A program made the position numbers and the translations under genes. Below, piece by piece: positions 12,542 through 54,690 of a DNA stretch of 64,000 nt (position 1 is its first letter; every line of letters starts with the position of its first letter). The DNA comes from Paenibacillus pinihumi DSM 23905 = JCM 16419. GTDB lineage: Bacteria; Bacillota; Bacilli; Paenibacillales; Paenibacillaceae. The notes under the pieces were generated by a model. The model was not told where the DNA came from, searched no databases, and saw only the letters and a program-made list of their open reading frames with translations. The stretch is taken from contig NZ_AULX01000026.1 in the NCBI RefSeq assembly GCF_000422505.1, positions 1-64,000 of the forward strand, read 5' to 3'.

Positions 12542-12570
12542 TTGAACAGCCGCCTATTTTCCATTATAAT
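12542..12570 (+). promoter_or_regulatory. Sigma-A promoter of the AraC/lipoprotein locus
   Basis: TTGAAC at 12542 and TATAAT at 12565 are separated by 17 bases. The AraC start codon lies at 12683, which leaves a leader of about 105 bases. Confidence 0.75.
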
Positions 12571-12682
12571 GACCCCATACTTGATCCAAAGAGCTTTAAG
12601 GTTTAATGTGAAAGCGGCTGCGAACGGTGAAGGTGTGGAACTACGAGGAAAAGTGGAGCTTCGTCAAAATGGAGGCAGGTTC

Positions 12683-14605
12683 ATGAACCTAGATCACTAC
12701 CATATTATATGGAATCATGCAGCGGTAAAGATTTCAGATATTCGCCAATTGTCGATCCGCCATGGGGAGGATTGGCAGGCATACCATCTGCCGGCAAGCG
12801 GATTTTTGTATGCGTATCAAGGCAGCGCAAGGCTGCTGCTGGATGGGGCCGAGCATACGGCCAAACGTTTTCATTTGCTTCACGGCGGCAAGGGAATGTG
12901 CCTCGAAATTAGGCCGCTTAGCGAGGTCTTTGAATGTTATCTGATTTTTTATAAATTATCATTGTCCTTGCCAAGCCGGGGGCAAACCCGCAGACTGCTG
13001 GAGAATACCAACCCTTCCCTCATGCAGTACAGCTTTGCCCCGAATCAGCCGCTTTCACTATTTCATCTCATACAACAGATGGATAAAGAGTGGAGTGAGG
13101 CAGGCGCTGCTTCACAGCTTTTGGTGAAGGGGCTATTCTATCAATTCGTCCATGAAGTTGTGAAGCAGCTCCAAGCACAGGGCATTCATCCAGCCCAGCC
13201 TGATCTTGTTTCCCAAATGCTTCGCTACCTTCATGACCGTTACACAACGGCCGTGACCATGGATGATCTCGCAGCACTATTCAATTATAGTGTCAGATAT
13301 CTGTCTCGGACCTTCAAGCAGGCGACCGGATACAGTCCAATTGAATATCTCATCCGGCTGCGGATAGAGAAGGCCAAGGAACTGCTGGAGACGACAAATG
13401 CAACGATCAAGGAAGTCGCAGAGCTGGTTGGCTATAATGACTCCTTCTATTTCAACCGGATTTTCAAAAAGCACACCGGCGTGTCGCCAGGACACTACGC
13501 CTCCAGTACGCAATCGCATAGAATTCCGAATCGTCCATACTTTAGGCCCGGATTGTCTATTGTGGCGACCAGAGCCCGACGGTATAGTGGTGATAATGAT
13601 TATCAACCGCAAGCCTTTGGGAGGATTTTAAGAATGAACAGAACATCAGCGAACACAATGGCCTTTATTGTGCTGCTCAGCTTGACCCTGATGGTCAGTG
13701 CATGTACCAGCAGCACAGCTACGCCGAATGCAGCGCCGGAACCAGGGCAATCGCAGCAGGTTGCAACAGAAAGGGTTCTAAAGGATGCGCTTGGTAATGA
13801 TGTGAAGGTCCCGGCTAATCCGCAGAGGATTATCGCTTCCTATCTGGAAGATCATCTAGTTGCATTGGGAGTCAAACCTGTAGCACAGTGGTCGATAGGC
13901 GAGAATTCGGTACAGCACTACCTGCAGGGCGATTTGGCCGGAATCGCCCCGATTCCCTTTAATTTGCCGCCCGAGGTTGTGATGAGCTTTGACCCGGACT
14001 TGATTATTATCGACAATGCCGAGATGGTAGAAGGGGATAAATACAACCAGTACGCCAAGATCGCACCAACCTACACGATTGGCAAAGAGAGAAATAACAA
14101 CTGGCGCAAGGAACTGTTGACCATAGGCGACGTGTTGAACAAGAGTGAGGAAGCGAAGAAAGTGCTGGAGCAGTACGAGCAAAAAGCCAAGGAAGCCAAG
14201 GAAAAGCTTCACCAGGCTGTTGGGGAACAATCTGCCGCGGCGCTCTGGGTGACGGAAAAAAGCGTCTTTGTGGTGAGCGACAATTTGTCCAGCGGAGATG
14301 TGCTGTACAACGATCTCGGGCTTAAGGTACCCAATGTTGTAGAGGAAATCTCCAAAAATGGAACAGGTAACTGGAATGCGATTTCACTTGAGGCGCTTGC
14401 TGAAATTGATGCCGATCATCTGTTCATTATCAACAGCAGAGGCATCAGCAAGGACAAGCTGTTAAGTGATCCGGTATGGTCTAATATTCCGGCGGTCAAG
14501 AATGGCAACGTCTATGAGTATGACAAGGAGACAAGCTGGCTTTATACCGGCACGATTGCCAACTCGCAAATTATCGATGACGTGCTTGAGAGCATGATTA
14601 AATAA
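12683..14605 (+). CDS. AraC regulator read in frame into an iron-siderophore binding lipoprotein
   Basis: The open frame from ATG 12683 (seven bases after GGAGG) runs 640 codons without a stop. Residues 1-150 are an AraC-type sensing domain. Residues about 175-275 are the two helix-turn-helix motifs (VTMDDLAALFNYSVRYLSRTF; IKEVAELVGYNDSFYFNRIFK). About 40 residues of low-complexity linker follow, then a complete lipoprotein with its own signal peptide and lipobox. B. subtilis Btr is a known AraC/binding-protein fusion, but its binding domain has no signal peptide. Here the internal signal, promoter, Fur box and ribosome site argue for two genes that lost the stop codon between them. Both a long product and a separate lipoprotein may be made. 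Confidence 0.7.
   Translation: MNLDHYHIIWNHAAVKISDIRQLSIRHGEDWQAYHLPASGFLYAYQGSARLLLDGAEHTAKRFHLLHGGKGMCLEIRPLSEVFECYLIFYKLSLSLPSRGQTRRLLENTNPSLMQYSFAPNQPLSLFHLIQQMDKEWSEAGAASQLLVKGLFYQFVHEVVKQLQAQGIHPAQPDLVSQMLRYLHDRYTTAVTMDDLAALFNYSVRYLSRTFKQATGYSPIEYLIRLRIEKAKELLETTNATIKEVAELVGYNDSFYFNRIFKKHTGVSPGHYASSTQSHRIPNRPYFRPGLSIVATRARRYSGDNDYQPQAFGRILRMNRTSANTMAFIVLLSLTLMVSACTSSTATPNAAPEPGQSQQVATERVLKDALGNDVKVPANPQRIIASYLEDHLVALGVKPVAQWSIGENSVQHYLQGDLAGIAPIPFNLPPEVVMSFDPDLIIIDNAEMVEGDKYNQYAKIAPTYTIGKERNNNWRKELLTIGDVLNKSEEAKKVLEQYEQKAKEAKEKLHQAVGEQSAAALWVTEKSVFVVSDNLSSGDVLYNDLGLKVPNVVEEISKNGTGNWNAISLEALAEIDADHLFIINSRGISKDKLLSDPVWSNIPAVKNGNVYEYDKETSWLYTGTIANSQIIDDVLESMIK
13560..13605 (+). promoter_or_regulatory. 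Internal promoter with perfect Fur box before the lipoprotein
   Basis: TTGTGG at 13560 and TATAGT at 13583 are 17 bases apart. TGATAATGATTATCA at 13591-13605 is an exact 7-1-7 Fur box starting two bases after the -10. It lies inside the AraC frame and 28 bases before the lipoprotein ATG, so the lipoprotein should be iron-repressed on its own. Confidence 0.85.
13634..14605 (+). CDS. Iron-siderophore ABC importer binding lipoprotein (internal start)
   Basis: From ATG 13634, nine bases after GGGAGG, a 323-residue class-III binding protein is encoded. It has a signal peptide ending VSAC (Cys24) and a Ser/Thr/Pro-rich linker. The PF01497 pattern follows: VPANPQRIIASYLEDHLVALG, MSFDPDLIIIDNAEMV, and SDPVWSNIPAVKNGNVYEY near the end. 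No permease or ATPase genes adjoin it, so it probably feeds another FecCD importer, possibly the one at 7885-9878. The frame is continuous with the AraC regulator upstream. Confidence 0.85.
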   Translation: MNRTSANTMAFIVLLSLTLMVSACTSSTATPNAAPEPGQSQQVATERVLKDALGNDVKVPANPQRIIASYLEDHLVALGVKPVAQWSIGENSVQHYLQGDLAGIAPIPFNLPPEVVMSFDPDLIIIDNAEMVEGDKYNQYAKIAPTYTIGKERNNNWRKELLTIGDVLNKSEEAKKVLEQYEQKAKEAKEKLHQAVGEQSAAALWVTEKSVFVVSDNLSSGDVLYNDLGLKVPNVVEEISKNGTGNWNAISLEALAEIDADHLFIINSRGISKDKLLSDPVWSNIPAVKNGNVYEYDKETSWLYTGTIANSQIIDDVLESMIK

Positions 14606-46483: not shown

Positions 46484-46648
46484 ATGTATACCGGTGCATT
46501 GTACTTCCGCCACAGAAATTTTTTTTGCAACCACAATGATAATGATTATCATTATCTGATTAAACGCATGGCGTTCTGTGGTCTTGAACTCTCATTTATC
46601 AAAACAGGAAGGGGTGCATGTAGCTTCATTAATTGGTTTAGGAGTTGA
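46484..46648 (+). CDS. Possible 54-residue leader ORF spanning the Fur box
   Basis: ATG 46484 follows GAGAGAGG by six bases and lies about 47 bases after the predicted start of the 46402 promoter. The frame reads MYTGALYFRHRNFFCNH and continues through the Fur box (giving DNDYHY) to TGA at 46646. The product is rich in His, Asn, Cys and Phe and has no known relatives. It may be chance, or a small leader peptide. The ribosome site is the main argument for it. Confidence 0.3.
   Translation: MYTGALYFRHRNFFCNHNDNDYHYLIKRMAFCGLELSFIKTGRGACSFINWFRS
46537..46556. promoter_or_regulatory. Fur box of the NEAT/SLH heme module
   Basis: TGATAATGATTATCA (46537-46551) is an exact 7-1-7 box, and the full 19-base GATAATGATTATCATTATC (46538-46556) also matches the classical Fur consensus at nearly every base. 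It lies 180 bases before the small NEAT-like gene and should make the module iron-repressed. Confidence 0.92.
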
Positions 46649-46736: not shown

Positions 46737-47123
46737 ATGGCAAAAACGATGAAAAAAACAATTACTTTGATGCTTACAATGATGGTACTGGCTCTGGCTG
46801 TAGCTATTCCGGCGTTCGCTGCTACGAATAAAACTTATACTTTCTATTACAATGGAGCACCTAGCACTCATGCCAGCGCTTTTATTAATGGTCCTGCAGT
46901 AGTTGATAATGATGGCTTTACTACGACTTTCACTCTGCTCAATACAAGCAATGTCATCAAAGGCGTGAAATATAACGGAGCAACTGTTCCTGTTACTTAT
47001 TCCAGTGGCAATGCTGTTTTCACTATCGAAGTTTTTAACTTCAATGCCCCTGTATCCATCACGCTGGATCTGCAATATCCAGGCGGCCACTCCGCTCCAA
47101 TGACAGTTCAAGCTGTATTTTAA
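46737..47123 (+). CDS. Small secreted NEAT-like protein
   Basis: The 128-residue product has a signal peptide ending AIPAFAAT (about residue 29) and a single beta-sandwich module. The module follows the NEAT pattern: an opening YTFYYNG, a helix region STHASAFINGPAVV, a central SNVIKGVKYNGATVPVTY, and a final beta strand pair to GGHSAPMTVQAVF. The heme-binding SxxxxY and YxxxY/H residues of true NEAT domains are not present. It may thus bind another ligand or help in transfer. It is the first full gene after the Fur box; AAGGGAG precedes its ATG. Confidence 0.75.
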   Translation: MAKTMKKTITLMLTMMVLALAVAIPAFAATNKTYTFYYNGAPSTHASAFINGPAVVDNDGFTTTFTLLNTSNVIKGVKYNGATVPVTYSSGNAVFTIEVFNFNAPVSITLDLQYPGGHSAPMTVQAVF

Positions 47124-47336: not shown

Positions 47337-50300
47337 GTGAATAGGGTCAAGAAGTACGTATCCATGTTGTTAATTTTCATGTTTCTCGCAGGCTTGGTTC
47401 CGCTCGGGCGTGTTGCCGCAGCTGAAGGAACAATGGTCTTAAAAGACGGTGAGTACTCGGTGGGTTATAAGTATTATAAAGACAATACGAACGAACCGTC
47501 CGTAACAGACGACTATGGATATCCGGGCACAGGTGTGCTGATTGTTAAAGGGAACACATACTATTTTGAACACGACATGAAGTTTTACCACTATTTCGGA
47601 TACTTTGCTTCGCGGAAGCCCGGGCAGCCTAAGGCCGTTATTGCCCAAAATAATAAGTCGGCTAGCGGAGCGGAAGGGTATGAGGTCATAGCTTCTACTA
47701 AAGCAGAAGGTGGGGAAGACCGTACCAAAGTACGCATTCTAATAGAGGACTATAATAAACGCCAGGATTTACTGATGCATATTCTTATTCCAGGCATTAA
47801 TTATGATAACTGGTATAATGCACAGTTGGAGCTTGACCTGAGCAAGATCCCGTCTTCAGGCGAAGATGATGATCTGACCATGGCCAAGAAGCAACTGGAG
47901 CAAATGTTCACGGACGCCCATACGTTATATGAGAATGCAAAGGAAGGAACAGGGAATGGCTCCTATCCTGTCGGCTCTAAAAAAGAATTCGAATCAGCCA
48001 TTCATCAGGCACAAGAACTGGCCGCAAATGCTGGTGATGATATCCAGCTGATTCGGGCGGTTTATGCTTTCCTGAATGAAGCGTATACGAAATTTGTTGC
48101 GAAAAAAATAGTGACTGACAGGGCAGCCTTGTTGGCCTTAATCGATCAAGTAGATGCCATCGTCGATTCCGTCAAAAATGCAGGAACGGCTGAAGGAACT
48201 CCTAATAGAGGCGCAGCTGTCGCTGGAGAGTATCCGCCCGGTACATCCAACAGTTTGAGAGGCTTCTTAGGCGCTGCCAAAGGGGCTGCGGGTGATTTGG
48301 ATGCATCCCAAGCTGTAATTGATGAGACATTTAAAAATTTAAAAGAGCAATTCGATGCGCTTGAGTTGAAAAAGTTCGTTGAATCAACGGGAACAATAAC
48401 TATGATTAATTCGATTGGCGAGGATGCCCAAATTTCAGAATACGCCAAGGAAATTGATCCAGCGTCAACCTTATTAAGAGGCCAAGATCCGTATCGCACA
48501 ACCCATGCCAATATTGCTTTTCTTTTGGAGCAGAATCCAACAGAAGTCTCTTTTGCGAGTCCGACAGCAGCAGGCGGGTTCAACCCGTCAAGTTTGTCTG
48601 CGGCAAAGAAATCTGCCCTGAATTCAACTGCTTCCAGACAGGTATACCAGATTACTCCCAGACATGACATCGCGAAGGACGAGGTGTATCAGGGGCTGGC
48701 TTACTTGGAATACACCATTGAAGGTGTAAAAAGAGAGGTATATATCAGCTTCAACTCCGCACAGCTCGCACAGTTGAATAAAGCTATATTGGAGGCCCAG
48801 GAGCTGCATGACAAAGCTGTTGAAGGCTCAGATAGCGGTGAGTATGCGGAAGGCTCAAAAGCAGTCTTGCAAGTTAAAATTGACGAAGTCAAAAAGATGG
48901 GCGGCAATCTTGCTGCAACCCGTCCGCAAATCGCAAATGCGAGTGAAGTTCTTCAGAATGCGGTTCAGCAGTTTAAATCACAGCTTGTTCCTTTGATTTA
49001 CTTCACTGCTGTGCATGAAACAGCCCAAGCGTTTTCCAGTATGGACAGCTATATGGTTAAGCCTGCTAAAGTCAATTTTTCTAATGGAAAAGCAAAGGTA
49101 GAGTTGACCGTTAAGGACAGCACCACAGTTACCGAATTTAAAATCAAGCAAGGCGAGAACTACGTACCTGCTGCCGTGGTAAGTGAAGATAAAGAAAAAA
49201 ATACGCGTGTAGTCAGTTTTGAAGTTAATGATCTTGGCAAACTGGTAGATGCACGTGTGCGTACTGTGGTTCCTTCCCAGAATTATGACCGGGAGCATAA
49301 TATCCGGTTGAACTTTAACAACGTGGACAACACAGCATTATTTTCCTTGATCAATGCTGCAAATGCCAAGCTGCGTGCAGCTGTTACCGGAACTGAGCCC
49401 GGCCAGTATACGGAGGCTGCCAAAGCGGTATTAAAGGCAGCTGTTGATGAGGCAAATACAGAAGCAGTTAGCCTGTCCGCAACGCCTGAGACATCTGCAG
49501 CAGCGACAGCCAAGCTTAAGGAAGCAGTCGCCCTGTTCGAACGTTCAGACAACAAGAACCTGAATCCGCTGAATACCCTGATTGCATCCGCACAATCGGC
49601 ACATGACAGCGCCAATGAAGGTACAAGTGTAAACCAGTACAAAGCCGGCTCGAAGCAAAAATTGCAGGCCGCTATCGGAGTGGCTAAAGAATCAGCCGCA
49701 AATCCGGTGAACCAGAACCAGATTAACGAAGCTGCTGTGAAGCTGCAAGCGGCGCTGGATGCATTCCAGGCGTCCAAGAACTTCAGCACGGGAAATTACA
49801 ATGCAACGCTGAAATCATCCTCCCCGGCTTTTGCGGGTCATATTCAGGGAACAGCGGAGCTTGCAGTTGGCGCTCAAACGAGCAAGCTGACAATAACGCC
49901 TAAACCAGGCGTAACCGTTAAAAAGCTGATCAATCAAACAACGAATGAGGAAATCCTGCCGGTTGGCTCTATGTCTCCTGCTGCTGTGTCTTCTCAGGGC
50001 TTCAGGGGTACAGCTGCGCTGCTGGCGCTGACATCCGGGGCGTCTGTTCCGGTTCAGTTCGAAGTGAAGGATCTGAGCAGCCCGTACAGTCTGGTTATTG
50101 AATATATCGACAATGAACAAGTGAAAGAGACCAGCTACACAGTCCAGCTTGCTAACATTACATCCAAGACCACACCGTATTACCCTGGCGGCAATTCGGG
50201 TGTAGTGGTCGGTACATCAGATAAATACTACTATATCGATTTCAAAGTTCTGAAAGAGGGCACGGCAGAAACATCGATGATGCAAAGCTATGTAGTGCCC

Positions 50301-51185
50301 AAAGCGCTGGTCAAGGAATCCGGCAGCTCGAAGACTGTACAATTTACAGTGAAACAAAGCAGCGCCATCAAAGTGCTAACCATTGACGGTCATGAAGTTG
50401 CGGATGTGAGCAAAAACGAGGCTGCGGATACAAGAGTTGTATCTGTCAGCTTGACGGACCTGTCCGCGAAGCTTAAGGCCACTGTGAAGCTGAGCATCCC
50501 GGCGCAAAACTATAATAGCGAGCACACTGTCCAATTTGTCTTTGATACGGCTTCGGTGAAGGCTGCTGATGCCAACGCTGCAGTGCCTGGAGTAGAGACA
50601 ACAGGTACAACCGTACAGACCCCGGACAAAGGCAATGAGACCCAGGAGCCGGAAACAGACTTTGCAGACATTAAAGGGCATTGGGCTCAAGCCGAGATTG
50701 GGAAGGCTGTCACGCTTGGGATCGCTACAGGTTATGCTGACGGAACTTTCCGGCCGGACGGGGTCATCACCCGGGCCGAATTCGTATCCCTGCTCAGCCG
50801 TGCGCTGAAGCTTGAGGCAGGGAAGGAAGCGGCATTCCAGGATGCCAGCCGTATTCCTGCATGGGCTCGTGAGCATGTAGCGAAGGCTGCAAGCGCCGGC
50901 CTGATTGGAGGCTACAGTGATCAGACCTTCCGTCCGGACCAGCAGATCAGCCGTGCGGAGCTTGCAGTCATTATCACCCGTGCAGCGAAGCTGGAGACCG
51001 GCAAGAGCGCAGCTCTGAGCTTTGCAGATGCCGGGCTGATCCCGGGGTGGGCACAGGCTGAGATTGCGGCTGCTGTCCAGGCCGGATTGATTCAGGGCAA
51101 AGGCGGCAATACTTTTGATCCATCAGCAGCCGCAACGCGTGCGGAAGCTTTGGCATTGATCATCAAGCTGTTGGATGAGAAATAA
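47337..51185 (+). CDS. Large NEAT/helical-repeat/SLH surface protein, probable heme capture
   Basis: The 1282-residue protein starts at GTG, ten bases after AAAGGAG, with a signal peptide to about residue 28. Five NEAT-like modules (about 30-172, 348-476, 552-661, 818-945, 964-1070) alternate with FIVAR-like helical repeats (about 181-345, 478-550, 663-812). Three SLH repeats (about 1107-1282) tie it to the wall. Modules three and five keep the heme helix (SSMDSY, TSMMQSY) and a YxxxH pair (NYDREH, NYNSEH), where the classical motif is YxxxY. The other modules are divergent. B. anthracis BslK is a known NEAT/SLH heme protein. The Fur box upstream fits heme-iron scavenging; no isd-type importer is in view. 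Confidence 0.88.
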   Translation: MNRVKKYVSMLLIFMFLAGLVPLGRVAAAEGTMVLKDGEYSVGYKYYKDNTNEPSVTDDYGYPGTGVLIVKGNTYYFEHDMKFYHYFGYFASRKPGQPKAVIAQNNKSASGAEGYEVIASTKAEGGEDRTKVRILIEDYNKRQDLLMHILIPGINYDNWYNAQLELDLSKIPSSGEDDDLTMAKKQLEQMFTDAHTLYENAKEGTGNGSYPVGSKKEFESAIHQAQELAANAGDDIQLIRAVYAFLNEAYTKFVAKKIVTDRAALLALIDQVDAIVDSVKNAGTAEGTPNRGAAVAGEYPPGTSNSLRGFLGAAKGAAGDLDASQAVIDETFKNLKEQFDALELKKFVESTGTITMINSIGEDAQISEYAKEIDPASTLLRGQDPYRTTHANIAFLLEQNPTEVSFASPTAAGGFNPSSLSAAKKSALNSTASRQVYQITPRHDIAKDEVYQGLAYLEYTIEGVKREVYISFNSAQLAQLNKAILEAQELHDKAVEGSDSGEYAEGSKAVLQVKIDEVKKMGGNLAATRPQIANASEVLQNAVQQFKSQLVPLIYFTAVHETAQAFSSMDSYMVKPAKVNFSNGKAKVELTVKDSTTVTEFKIKQGENYVPAAVVSEDKEKNTRVVSFEVNDLGKLVDARVRTVVPSQNYDREHNIRLNFNNVDNTALFSLINAANAKLRAAVTGTEPGQYTEAAKAVLKAAVDEANTEAVSLSATPETSAAATAKLKEAVALFERSDNKNLNPLNTLIASAQSAHDSANEGTSVNQYKAGSKQKLQAAIGVAKESAANPVNQNQINEAAVKLQAALDAFQASKNFSTGNYNATLKSSSPAFAGHIQGTAELAVGAQTSKLTITPKPGVTVKKLINQTTNEEILPVGSMSPAAVSSQGFRGTAALLALTSGASVPVQFEVKDLSSPYSLVIEYIDNEQVKETSYTVQLANITSKTTPYYPGGNSGVVVGTSDKYYYIDFKVLKEGTAETSMMQSYVVPKALVKESGSSKTVQFTVKQSSAIKVLTIDGHEVADVSKNEAADTRVVSVSLTDLSAKLKATVKLSIPAQNYNSEHTVQFVFDTASVKAADANAAVPGVETTGTTVQTPDKGNETQEPETDFADIKGHWAQAEIGKAVTLGIATGYADGTFRPDGVITRAEFVSLLSRALKLEAGKEAAFQDASRIPAWAREHVAKAASAGLIGGYSDQTFRPDQQISRAELAVIITRAAKLETGKSAALSFADAGLIPGWAQAEIAAAVQAGLIQGKGGNTFDPSAAATRAEALALIIKLLDEK

Positions 51186-51199
51186 GAAGCGGCAAGAAT

Positions 51200-51229
51200 G
51201 GGGTGGCGGAATGTAAATTCCGTCGCCCC
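51200..51229 (+). terminator. Terminator of the NEAT/SLH gene
   Basis: GGGGTGGCGGAA pairs with TTCCGTCGCCCC (two G-T pairs), then TTCATCATT. It ends the message 15-45 bases after the stop, well before the next promoter at 51368. Confidence 0.75.
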
Positions 51230-51367
51230 TTCATCATTAGAATGCTCCTTTGTTAAACGGAATGTATTGCTGCCATTGCAGAAAGAGAAGCGGTTGGAGC
51301 ATAGGTGCAAATTAAAACAAAATGTGACAAGAGTGGTTTGCATGCAAAGAAAATAGAAGTGAAGCAG

Positions 51368-51428
51368 TTGACATTGAAGCGTGAGAGAGGTATCATTAAG
51401 TTGTAAGTGATAATGGTTATCATTATCA
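51368..51428 (+). promoter_or_regulatory. Strong promoter with Fur box and no gene behind it
   Basis: TTGACA at 51368 and TATCAT at 51391 are 17 bases apart. A 21-base palindromic Fur site occupies 51408-51428, built of TGATAATGG, TTA and TCATTATCA, over the expected start of transcription. No protein gene of credible size follows on this strand before the terminator at 51508. Confidence 0.85.
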
Positions 51429-51558
51429 AATGATAAAAATCACCTTCGTATTCTAATCGCAATCATCGTCGAAGTCAGAATATCGGAGTGACAGAGCTTA
51501 TGCTCACAAGAAGAGGCCAGTGTTAAGCCCCCCTTACGCTGGTCTCTTCTTATGTTTT
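51403..51558 (+). ncRNA. Candidate Fur-regulated small RNA
   Basis: A transcript from the 51368 promoter to the 51508 terminator would be about 155 bases. It lacks a credible gene: the only short frames are 8 codons (51430-51456, without ribosome site) and 8 codons (ATG near 51500, running into the terminator). The terminator loop is GCCCCCC, a C-run that could pair with G-rich ribosome binding sites. This resembles Fur-controlled regulatory RNAs such as FsrA of B. subtilis, which uses C-rich stretches to silence iron-rich proteins. No sequence match to FsrA is claimed. Alternative: a promoter remnant whose gene was lost when the neighbouring AT-rich islet came in. Confidence 0.55.
51508..51558 (+). 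terminator. Strong terminator with C-rich loop
   Basis: AAGAAGAGGCCAGTGT (51508-51523) pairs with ACGCTGGTCTCTTCTT (51536-51551), two G-T pairs; the apical loop contains CCCCCC at 51528-51533. ATG and six T follow. It points rightward and lies 9 bases before the end of the leftward DUF5050-like gene. Confidence 0.85.
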
Positions 51559-51566
51559 TTATTTGC

Positions 51567-52487
51567 CTAGTTAAAGTTGATTTCTTCAATTTTTCTTAGA
51601 GCAGGGTTGGGGTGATCCATATAAAACCAACTACCATCAGTCCACTGCATACCGTAGTATTTATTATCATCATCCCTTAATGGGAAGCTTTCCCCGGTAG
51701 TCTTATTGTATTTACGCATATGTTTGTCAAAATAGTAAATTTCTTTTTCATTGTCATAAAAAATATCTTCTGCATGATTAATTAGTTTGCTTATTTTGGG
51801 GTTGCTATATTGTACTTCGTAAACGGCCTTATCCTCCTCGGCCAAATAGATTAAACCCTTCTCCGTATATAGAACTTTTACAATTGTATGAGGTACGCTT
51901 GCAAGTTCCGACAATTGCTCTGTTTTTAAGTCGAGGCTAGAAACAGTATGTCCTAATGGTTCAACAAAATAAACAACGTCACTGCTAACCATATAACTAT
52001 TAACAGGTGTTTTAGTTAACAGTTCCTGTTCTGAACCATTATGCCTGATACGGTTGATTCGTTGATGACTGTCCACAAAATAAATCCAATCCGCTTCGGC
52101 TATGATAAGTCCAACTTCTTCATCAGTTATACGAGTATTGTTTTCTCCTGTGATGAGTGACTTATAGAGTTTCGAACCATCTGACTTATTTTGGTAAAAA
52201 AGTTGATCGCCCAGGACATTAATAAAGCCGGCAGATTGTCTGACAAGGATCTGTTTGTGCTCTCCATCCTTGGTTTTGGTATAAATATAACTGTGATCCT
52301 CTGGCTCGGCGTAGAAGATCCAATCACCCTGAGAAGTTACGTACCCGCCATTTAGAATATTATTCATCGTATTACCAATCTCGTTAGACTTTAAAGCATC
52401 AGGCCGCTCTTTATCATAGTTACATCCGCTTAAAAGTATCACTAGAAATAAGAGGAGATATCCCTTTTTTAACGTTGGAAACAACAT
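51567..52487 (-). CDS. DUF5050-like beta-propeller lipoprotein
   Basis: The 306-residue lipoprotein has a lipobox LLSGC (Cys22) and then repeated blades of the pattern DWIFYAEPEDHSYIYTKTKDG, DQLFYQNKSDGSKLYKSL and DWIYFVDSHQRINRIRHNG, typical of DUF5050/WG-like propellers. Such proteins bind ligands on the cell surface; no enzymatic residue can be named. The base composition is clearly more AT-rich than in the flanking genes. It follows a secreted papain-fold-like protein gene in the same direction (131 bases apart). A related protein lies at 54764-56074. Confidence 0.75.
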   Translation of the reverse strand: MLFPTLKKGYLLLFLVILLSGCNYDKERPDALKSNEIGNTMNNILNGGYVTSQGDWIFYAEPEDHSYIYTKTKDGEHKQILVRQSAGFINVLGDQLFYQNKSDGSKLYKSLITGENNTRITDEEVGLIIAEADWIYFVDSHQRINRIRHNGSEQELLTKTPVNSYMVSSDVVYFVEPLGHTVSSLDLKTEQLSELASVPHTIVKVLYTEKGLIYLAEEDKAVYEVQYSNPKISKLINHAEDIFYDNEKEIYYFDKHMRKYNKTTGESFPLRDDDNKYYGMQWTDGSWFYMDHPNPALRKIEEINFN

Positions 52488-52617
52488 TTACATTCATCCT
52501 ACCTTCATTTCTATTCACTTTAAAGTAAGCGAGCCTCGCCAGTTATGACACTGGCGAAGCATTTATAGTTTTAATTAAATTGAATTCAATAATAAGTTTA
52601 TTATAAGCAGCATTCCA

Positions 52618-53817
52618 TTATGGTGTGTTAAATCGACTCACGCTACCACAGCAATACCATGCAGAATAATCAATCCAGCGGTCACTTGTACTCCAATTAT
52701 CATTAAGGCGAAGGAAGTTCTTGTCCCCATTCAATATTCCTGATTTTTCATAAGTCCGGTATCCTTTGACCAGAACAGTATGGTTTGTATAATACCCATT
52801 AGCCATATTAAATAAAGCAGGACGGTTATTATCAATTTCTGTTTTGAAAATGCTAAAAGAAATTACATAAACATTGTTACCCTTTCCATTAGAATAATTA
52901 TATTTTTTCCAAATATCAGTAATAATATCATCGATTTTTGTTGGTGGTGTTCCACCACTTGAAGTATACCCGTGATTTGTAGCAATAGTTTTAATGTCAT
53001 TATAAAGAGTTGTAATATTTGAAGGTATATTTGAATAGCTTGATCTGAAGTAACTGAAGGCTTGGGTCAGTGAGGACAAGGTGCAATTTTCTACATTTGA
53101 CTCGAAGGATGACTGAAGTCGAGCTGTAATACTAAGAGTTTTCTGGGTTTTCATTGTCCAGCCAGAACCATATGTGTCTACAATATATTGATACACGTCA
53201 GGAATTTCTACTGTTGAAAAAGCGGATATCCCATTTGAACCGTTTTTTTCTCCATCGGCCATCCATTTATTTAGTGACCCAAAAGATCGTAGTTGTGCTG
53301 ATAATTCAGGGTTAATCTCAGGAGGACTGGCAGTACGGAGCAAATTTTTGGCTACAATAGAATCAGGAGCAATTTCTGCTTCCAGAGTATATAGTTTGTT
53401 ATCAGACTCAAGATAGTATTCTATAGGAGAAGCGTAGTAAATTTTATCTGCATCTTCCAACCCGCTAATTTGATATACCGGGTCATCGGTATAAGAGAAT
53501 TCAGTAACAGATAAGTCTCCACCAGTATTTTGAACGAAAATGTAGCCATTCTTTACACCTTGTTTGGTCAATTTAAAAGTGTAGCCGATCAAATTATTAT
53601 TAATATCATAAATCTCGTTTACAGATTGAATTCTTGTATTCCGGTCCCAACCAGAATCTTCATTTTCATATTTATCACTAGCTATAAACCAAGCAGCAAA
53701 TAGACCGTAGTCCTCATAAACAGATGAATCTGATTCAGCATGAAGATTGTAAGCAGGGATGTTAAAAAAGAGTAAGCTAAAACACAAAAACACAAAAAAA
53801 GGTTTACACCATTTCAT
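52618..53817 (-). CDS. Secreted C39/C10-like cysteine peptidase-fold protein
   Basis: The 399-residue protein has a signal peptide (about residues 1-27, ending NLHAES) and a propeptide-like N-terminal half. The C-terminal half shows a papain-like triad: Cys245 in NVENCTLSSLTQAFSYF, His346 in NHTVLVKGY, and Asn374 in LNDNWS. This order and the spacing fit the streptopain/C39-like peptidase clan. It is AT-rich compared with its surroundings, which suggests transfer. Its target is unknown; the neighbouring lipoprotein may be a partner. No clear relation to lantibiotic export was seen (no ABC transporter). Confidence 0.7.
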   Translation of the reverse strand: MKWCKPFFVFLCFSLLFFNIPAYNLHAESDSSVYEDYGLFAAWFIASDKYENEDSGWDRNTRIQSVNEIYDINNNLIGYTFKLTKQGVKNGYIFVQNTGGDLSVTEFSYTDDPVYQISGLEDADKIYYASPIEYYLESDNKLYTLEAEIAPDSIVAKNLLRTASPPEINPELSAQLRSFGSLNKWMADGEKNGSNGISAFSTVEIPDVYQYIVDTYGSGWTMKTQKTLSITARLQSSFESNVENCTLSSLTQAFSYFRSSYSNIPSNITTLYNDIKTIATNHGYTSSGGTPPTKIDDIITDIWKKYNYSNGKGNNVYVISFSIFKTEIDNNRPALFNMANGYYTNHTVLVKGYRTYEKSGILNGDKNFLRLNDNWSTSDRWIDYSAWYCCGSVSRFNTP

Positions 53818-54167
53818 AAAAACTTTCTCCTCCCTTAGTATATTAATAAATTAAAAATTAAGCATTTTCTAAGATGAAGAAGTTTTAACCCCTCTCCATG
53901 AATTAACCTCAAAAGATACATAAATGGAAAAAAATTCTTATGGGTCCTTTTTAGGATATCATATTCCCTCTGTGTAATCAACGATTCAATGATATTATGA
54001 GAGTCTGACTTCTTTGGTAATTTGAATTCTGAAACTTTGCATTCCAACGTTATAAACTGTACCAGTGTGGAACAGTTTAATGCTGTCCAAACAAAAAAAC
54101 CTCTATTTCGCTTGTCGTAACAAGGGATGGAAGTTTTGGTTAGTGATGAGGCAGCTGGCATCTACTT
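53818..54167 (-). other. AT-rich stretch with an unsupported 108-codon frame
   Basis: A leftward frame (53835-54161) reads MPAASSLTKTSIPCYDKRN but has no ribosome site or known motif. It starts at the edge of the decayed NEAT/SLH copy. It could be a remnant of inserted DNA. It also holds the promoter of the peptidase gene. Not called as a gene. Confidence 0.35.
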
Positions 54168-54690
54168 CTAAGCGCTATCAAGGAGCAGTGTATTGACAGG
54201 CGTGAGGTCACAGATGTAAGCAATGATGGGGCTGCAAATACGAGGGTCTTGTTTGTCTGCTTGACAAGATCTGTCTTCGAAATTTAAAGTACCGTAAAAT
54301 TGGACATCCCGGCGCAAAATTATAATAGCGAGCATACCGTTCAATTCGAATTCGATACGGTTTTGGTGAAGGCGGTCGATGCCAGCGCTTCTGTGCCTGG
54401 AATCAAGACAACGGGTACAAATGGAGAGGCCCCGGGCAAAGGAAATGAGAATTTGGAGCCGGAATCAGAAACGGCATCTTCCGTCCGAACGCTTCCATCA
54501 CCCTGGCTGAATTCGTCGCTCTGCTCAGCCGCGCGCTGAAGCTGGAGAATGGCAAGGAAGCGGTTCCAGGATGACGTCCGGATTCCGGCATGGGCCCGCG
54601 AGAATATCTCCAAGGCAGCAAGTGCAGGCCTGATCCCGGGGTTGGGCACATGCCGAAGTTGCAGCTGCGGTCATGTCCGGCCTATATTTG
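54168..54690 (+). pseudogene. Decayed copy of the NEAT/SLH gene 3' end
   Basis: This stretch aligns by eye with about 50360-51090 of the large NEAT gene. Shared blocks include ATCCCGGCGCAAAA, TATAATAGCGAGCA, GTGCCTGGA and CTGATCCCGGGG. It spans the end of NEAT module five, the linker and parts of SLH one, two and three. Internal deletions remove much of SLH one and the SLH two-three junction, and frames are broken, so it cannot code for a working protein. It borders the AT-rich islet, which suggests that DNA was inserted into a second copy of the gene that later decayed. Confidence 0.8.

Follow-up and report, generated by a model that had tools for sequence, protein, structure and literature searches.

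Between a NEAT-SLH gene and an opposite-strand gene, the window (the whole stretch of 64,000 nucleotides of Paenibacillus pinihumi DNA that was analysed) carries a promoter, a palindromic Fur-like box and a hairpin in succession, and no evident gene of their own. What would such a unit make, and what would its product do? An earlier note on this DNA had taken it for a self-contained, Fur-controlled unit with a candidate small RNA whose C-rich loop might pair with G-rich ribosome sites. The features that bear on the question are collected in Table 1, in which G000 is the genome of the window and G006 is a relative with a syntenic copy of the unit (locus L002).

Table 1. Features of the unit and its surroundings in the window (G000) and in G006
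Feature	Position	Strand	Basis
Sigma-A type promoter TTGACA-17-TATCAT	51368..51396	+	consensus score 11/12
Fur-like box GATAATGGTTATCATTATC	51409..51427	.	18/19 on better strand; just 3' of expected start site
Predicted small RNA, 158 nt	51403..51560	+	start inferred 7 nt past -10 box; end at T run
16-bp hairpin, terminator-like in this genome	51508..51551	+	fold; 16/16 pairs kept in G006
Conserved loop and candidate seed GTTAAGCCCCCCTTAC; CCCCCCUUA would pair with UAAGGGGGG	51522..51537	+	identical in G006
T6 tract 3' of hairpin	51555..51560	+	sequence; absent in G006
NEAT-SLH gene 5' of unit	47337..51185	+	three NEAT and three SLH matches (Pfam PF05031, PF00395)
Hairpin 3' of NEAT-SLH gene	51200..51229	+	sequence; then TTCATCATT, weak T tract
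Downstream gene, DUF5050	51567..52487	opposite to unit	ORF and domain match
G006 promoter TTGACA-17-TAATAT	L002:1373-1401		read from sequence
G006 Fur-like box	L002:1415-1433		kept relative to G000

Promoter, Fur-like box and predicted transcript

The -35 element (51368-51373) and the -10 element (51391-51396) are separated by a 17-nt spacer, as the earlier note had read them, and together they form the joint best, with one other, of the 18 promoter-like sites in 49000-54000 (shuffle mean 11.0). The palindromic site that had been placed over the expected start is also present, directly past that start. Scored over 19 positions against a consensus, it has 17 of 19 matches on the plus strand and one more on the better strand. 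It is the window's second-best site, and a site with at least 16 matches occurs in none of 20 Markov sequences of window length.

The interval 51403-51562 folds with a z-score of -6.5, and none of 200 shuffles is equally stable. No plus-strand open reading frame of at least 30 residues is found within the transcript, and the longest frame lying entirely upstream of the T run of the predicted transcript has 12 codons, in agreement with the claim that the unit holds no credible reading frame. About 80 non-coding bases lie between the Fur-like box and the hairpin. A promoter and a Fur-like box of its own, with no coding sequence, is the arrangement by which Fur-repressed iron-sparing RNAs are recognised, and at the level of the sequence it is found here.

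The stems of the hairpin (51508-51523 and 51536-51551) form 16 pairs, two of which are G-U, and enclose a 12-nt loop, TAAGCCCCCCTT, with six consecutive C at 51528-51533. Five of these six C are predicted to be unpaired, with a probability of 0.99-1.0, and they belong to the single run of at least three C in the predicted RNA, in the G000 copy and in the G006 copy alike. The T6 tract starts 3 nt past the stem; the hairpin, its loop and the T run are all as first described. A consensus terminator scan lists nothing in the region, because the 12-nt loop and the distance of the T run from the stem break the rules of the scan.

By its domain matches, the product of the heme-uptake gene 5' of the unit is an iron transport-associated surface protein. 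A terminator had been claimed for this gene; the hairpin is there, but its T tract is weak. Since the downstream gene is on the opposite strand, the unit is not a leader of that gene. Further downstream, at 54291-54469, a segment of the NEAT-SLH gene (50481-50659) recurs as a 79 percent copy, separate from that gene and probably the remnant of a duplicated NEAT-SLH gene.

Conservation in a second genome

When 295 family genomes were searched at the DNA level, the matches listed for genomes other than G000 end by query position 73 of 168, on the Fur-box side, except in G006. Among the matches listed, G006 is the only other genome that matches the hairpin part, and both pieces occur there in order. 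In G006 a NEAT-SLH gene ends 5' of the unit, which is followed by a different opposite-strand gene and then by a glutamate dehydrogenase gene, which is downstream of the unit in the window as well. Copies of this dehydrogenase gene (70-87 percent) in G001, G024, G002, G003 and G004 have no adjoining NEAT-SLH match in the stretches fetched, the G004 contig being 7268 bases long.

The two copies are conserved in a discontinuous manner. Local scores between G000 and G006 are 38 for the Fur region and 58 for the hairpin, both of which are nearly identical in the alignment, and no similarity is found in the linker or in the upstream spacer, where 974 and 666 of 1000 shuffles, respectively, score as well. 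The G006 loop is identical to the G000 loop, GTTAAGCCCCCCTTACGC, and lies within the longest identical stretch of the alignment. No pair of the stem is broken: both bases differ in four pairs and a single base in two, and the four two-sided compensating changes sit in the lower stem. With two sequences only, this covariation is matched by 31 of 500 shuffles; slid controls pair at 31-50 percent, compared with 100 percent for the true register. A linker that is unrelated and a lower stem that has been rewritten by four compensating changes argue for a non-coding RNA hairpin. The G006 hairpin has no T run and is followed by a second hairpin. Since the hairpin is kept despite a different downstream gene and the missing T run, termination alone is insufficient as an explanation.

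The conservation search that the earlier note had named as a check recovers promoter, Fur box and hairpin in G006. Conservation is not limited to a coding frame, as the G006 copy shares a frame only for a few codons in the Fur box. What this syntenic copy, with its promoter, Fur box and loop, supports in the original claim of a Fur-controlled small RNA is the gene-less unit. Judged from the two sequences, selection very probably acts on the locus as a non-coding unit controlled by Fur.

Beyond these two genomes the unit is scarce. The exact 16-mer loop is present in two of 394 family genomes, and in two of the seven among them that belong to the genus. A covariance model of the hairpin finds matches with E of at most 0.01 in five of the 394 genomes, including G000 and G006; the other three were rejected as further copies, as they are without the C6 loop and the Fur-like sites there reach at most 12/19. 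Of 263 redundant loci, which contain 140 Fur-like sites, only loci of G000 and G006 have such a site with a hairpin after it whose loop includes at least four C. Two matches to YGTTAAGCCCCCCTTACG in a wider contig scan belong to MAGs of unrelated groups and are treated as chance.

Candidate target sites

Seed sites were searched in G000 and G006 as TAAGGGGGG followed by a start codon within 2-12 nt. G000 has 11 such sites and G006 has 9; the reversed pattern gives 11 and 10, respectively, so that neither genome has a genome-wide excess. Four sites are at matching places in both genomes: qcrA, the gene for heme-copper oxidase subunit I, rpsK and an unknown short unit; rpsK is among them though it is not an iron gene. 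In both carriers UAAGGGGGG lies near the start codon of qcrA, which codes for the Rieske Fe-S protein, and near the TTG start codon of the subunit I gene. By eye, qcrA is followed by frames that resemble cytochrome b-type genes. The NCBIfam names for the Rieske protein and for oxidase subunit I are below the curated cut-offs (the subunit I query was a 300-aa piece), while those for Fur and for quinol oxidase subunit III (CyoC) are above them. The site of the subunit III gene is UAAGGGGGG in G006 and CAAGGGGGG in G000.

Pairing of the C-rich loop with G-rich ribosome sites, as the earlier note had proposed, is plausible, but qcrA and the oxidase gene are better candidates than those it named, with UAAGGGGGG in both carriers. 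The chemoreceptor and binding-protein genes that had been suggested pair less well (-15.1 and -14.1 kcal/mol, where qcrA reaches -19.4 and the oxidase gene -19.5), and nothing in this analysis marks either product as an iron protein.

The two respiratory genes were picked as targets after their sites had been seen. For each, 30 loci were compared, the best matches in 44-genome draws that included G000; with G006 added, this gives the two carriers and 29 other relatives. At qcrA the 9-mer UAAGGGGGG is present in both carriers and in none of the 29 others, one of which has a G6 run and 28 of which have AAAGGGGG. The predicted qcrA duplex has an energy of -19.4 kcal/mol in both carriers; one relative reaches -19.6, and the remaining 28 range from -13.6 to -14.7. 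In the case of the oxidase gene, the 9-mer occurs in two of the 29 and a G6 run in six; here the carriers are at -19.5 and -19.4 kcal/mol, six relatives at -19.6 to -21.3 and 23 at -14.8 or weaker. The qcrA site separates the carriers from their relatives, and the oxidase site hardly does so. Relatives that have no copy of the RNA often carry a G-rich ribosome site at these genes.

The fur gene has the exact 9-mer in G000 and UAGGGGGG in G006. None of the 29 other relatives has the 9-mer, but 15 of them have G6, for which reason fur was set aside as a specific target. From 58 rows of 8-mer sites in G000, 20 stretches were chosen, of which 16 gave a frame of more than 60 aa; no iron protein was recognised by eye at these 16 frames, except oxidase subunit III.

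Proposed mechanism and alternatives

A lineage-specific, Fur-repressed, iron-sparing RNA appears to be the best reading of the unit. When iron is low, Fur would leave its box and the RNA would be transcribed. The C run, predicted to be single-stranded where it lies in the loop of the terminator-like hairpin, may then act as a mimic of the anti-Shine-Dalgarno sequence, in which CCCCCCUUA would pair with UAAGGGGGG ribosome sites and block translation. The likeliest targets would be qcrA, in the menaquinol-cytochrome c reductase operon, and the gene for heme-copper oxidase subunit I, and blocking their translation would therefore spare iron from complexes III and IV of the respiratory chain. We consider it reasonably likely that 51403-51560 encodes a trans-acting RNA that works in this manner on both genes. 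The components of this account are not equally firm. The sequence itself shows the promoter, the box, the hairpin, their conservation in one relative and the matching sites, from which transcription, binding by Fur, pairing inside the cell and an effect on the targets are inferred. That the unit is an iron-sparing RNA is probable, and the list of targets is tentative.

Even if the unit is a Fur-controlled non-coding RNA, it may act by another route, such as protein binding, a sponge function or other targets, in which case the C6 run would not be the seed or the two respiratory genes would not be targets. This is rather unlikely but carries some weight, as the seed sites are without genome-wide excess, rpsK and the unknown short unit are among the shared sites, and the G-rich sites of the respiratory genes are also found in relatives without the RNA. 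It is opposed by the inclusion of the loop, with its five unpaired C, in the longest identical stretch, and by the restriction of the qcrA 9-mer to the two carriers among the sampled relatives. Alternatively, the hairpin would serve merely to end transcription, of the NEAT-SLH gene or of the unit, and the Fur promoter would be left over from an iron gene since lost. The T6 tract in the window, the Fur-like boxes near NEAT genes of other family members and the NEAT-SLH remnant in the region agree with this. However, the G006 loop is letter-identical and yet has no T run, terminators require no conservation of the loop, and in both genomes the retained promoter and Fur box are not directly followed by a gene on the same strand, all of which makes a terminator joined to a relic improbable.

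Two further explanations deserve very little credence. If the unit coded for a short peptide, the frames available before the end of the hairpin in the window would have at most 12 codons (8 codons at 51430 and at 51500, and 6 codons from 51413 in the Fur box); the Fur-box frame of G006 is longer, at 22 codons from ATG or 24 from GTG. Nevertheless, the sole common frame begins in the Fur box and shows no likeness beyond it (MVIIIK compared with MIIIIK... in G006), the linkers are unrelated and no plus-strand frame in the unit reaches 30 aa, so that a peptide is hardly to be expected. A functionless promoter-like palindromic stretch that happens to adjoin a hairpin would explain the locus as chance or artefact; this too is very improbable, given a Fur-like box that far exceeds the Markov expectation and a conserved syntenic copy in G006.

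The iron-sparing RNA favoured here can be extended to a more specific history, which is possible but doubtful. The RNA would be young and clade-specific, and would have arisen next to a heme-uptake gene, separately from FsrA, IsrR and RyhB. One anti-Shine-Dalgarno-like loop would be its whole recognition device, and its targets would have co-evolved with it. The qcrA gene would have acquired the exact 9-mer complement through a single A to G change, the oxidase gene would likewise have gained the 9-mer, and the 9-mer of fur, in G000 and not in G006, might provide feedback on Fur. If this history is true, iron starvation would shut complexes III and IV together.

Relation to known iron-responsive RNAs

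FsrA of Bacillus subtilis is described as a Fur-repressed RNA of 84 nt with two C-rich regions, in which a C-rich stretch is proposed to pair with ribosome sites and the targets include qcrA (PMC8464778). The RNA predicted here resembles it on paper, by description only, in predicted Fur control, in the proposed C-rich pairing with ribosome sites and in qcrA as a candidate target; it differs in its predicted length of 158 nt and in having one C run, in a terminator-like loop, rather than two C-rich regions. According to the same account, the confirmed pairing of FsrA with gltAB is without the C-rich regions, and most of the predicted C-rich pairings of FsrA are unconfirmed (PMC8464778). IsrR of Staphylococcus aureus, also called Tsr25 or S596, is reported to be Fur-controlled and iron-sparing and to direct C-rich regions against ribosome sites (PMC9410917, PMC11257911). 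These three properties are also predicted here, although IsrR has three C-rich regions and two Fur boxes and the present RNA has one run of at least three C. NrrF of Neisseria meningitidis, a Fur-controlled RNA with cytochrome bc1 among its targets (PMC5586341), provides a likeness in the predicted complex III target. As FsrA is described with qcrA as a target (PMC8464778) and NrrF with cytochrome bc1 (PMC5586341), the target prediction gains from independent precedent.

None of these likenesses extends to a family assignment. In the window no Rfam family reaches its gathering score, and the weak E-value matches include many eukaryotic microRNA hairpins. With 16.5 bits (E 0.15), the match of the window to IsrR/tsr25 (RF02578) is far below the gathering score of 63, and no match to this family is listed for G006; the match was rejected as probably due to chance. 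NrrF (RF01416) scores 15.2 against 60 in G006 and is not listed for the window, where PrrF (RF00444) scores 14.1 against 90. IsrR itself is reported to have neither synteny nor sequence in common with RyhB, PrrF, MrsI and FsrA (PMC9410917). Since such RNAs of different lineages, by that report, share neither, a lack of homology would not be surprising here. By this comparison the predicted RNA is analogous to FsrA and IsrR, and membership in either is unsupported.

Iron-sparing RNAs have apparently been invented several times in bacteria, as far as the account of IsrR indicates (PMC9410917). In a full-text literature search, none is described in Paenibacillus among the matches listed, judged by titles and abstract starts. 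A small RNA with one seed, together with sister genomes that are without it, would allow the acquisition of targets by a regulatory RNA to be watched. The prediction is that a single base at the ribosome site of qcrA (AAGGGGGG compared with AAAGGGGG) decides whether the gene is regulated.

Other features of the two genomes

A Fur-like box with 19/19 matches lies at 46538 of the window, within the inverted repeat CCACAGAAATTTTTTTTGCA ... TTCTGTGG (46510-46585), upstream of a small gene for a secreted protein, at 46737, and of the NEAT-SLH gene. A comparable arrangement is found near NEAT-SLH matches in G006 (L103 near 2303) and in G110 (L110 near 3126). The small gene (46737-47123), located between this strong box and the NEAT-SLH gene, codes for a 128-aa protein with a signal-peptide-like start. 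No Pfam domain is matched, and NCBIfam gives only a weak match below the cut-off; the protein is possibly a diverged heme-binding protein.

Another conserved unit, GGCACAAGAGAGAATATATAATAAGGGGGGTCATG, is present in both genomes, in L088 near 1480-1620 and in L089 on the minus strand; no Rfam family reaches its gathering score in these two loci or in L002. Its short frame has 26 aa in G000 and 33 aa in G006 (MFHIIGNEDEPNLK and MSLIIGSEDEPNLK). At 12542-14605 the window has a single frame that appears, by eye, to combine an AraC-type regulator and a lipoprotein binding protein; near the junction, at 13592, lies a Fur-like box of 15/19. The frame is possibly two genes without an intervening stop, or a fused sensor.
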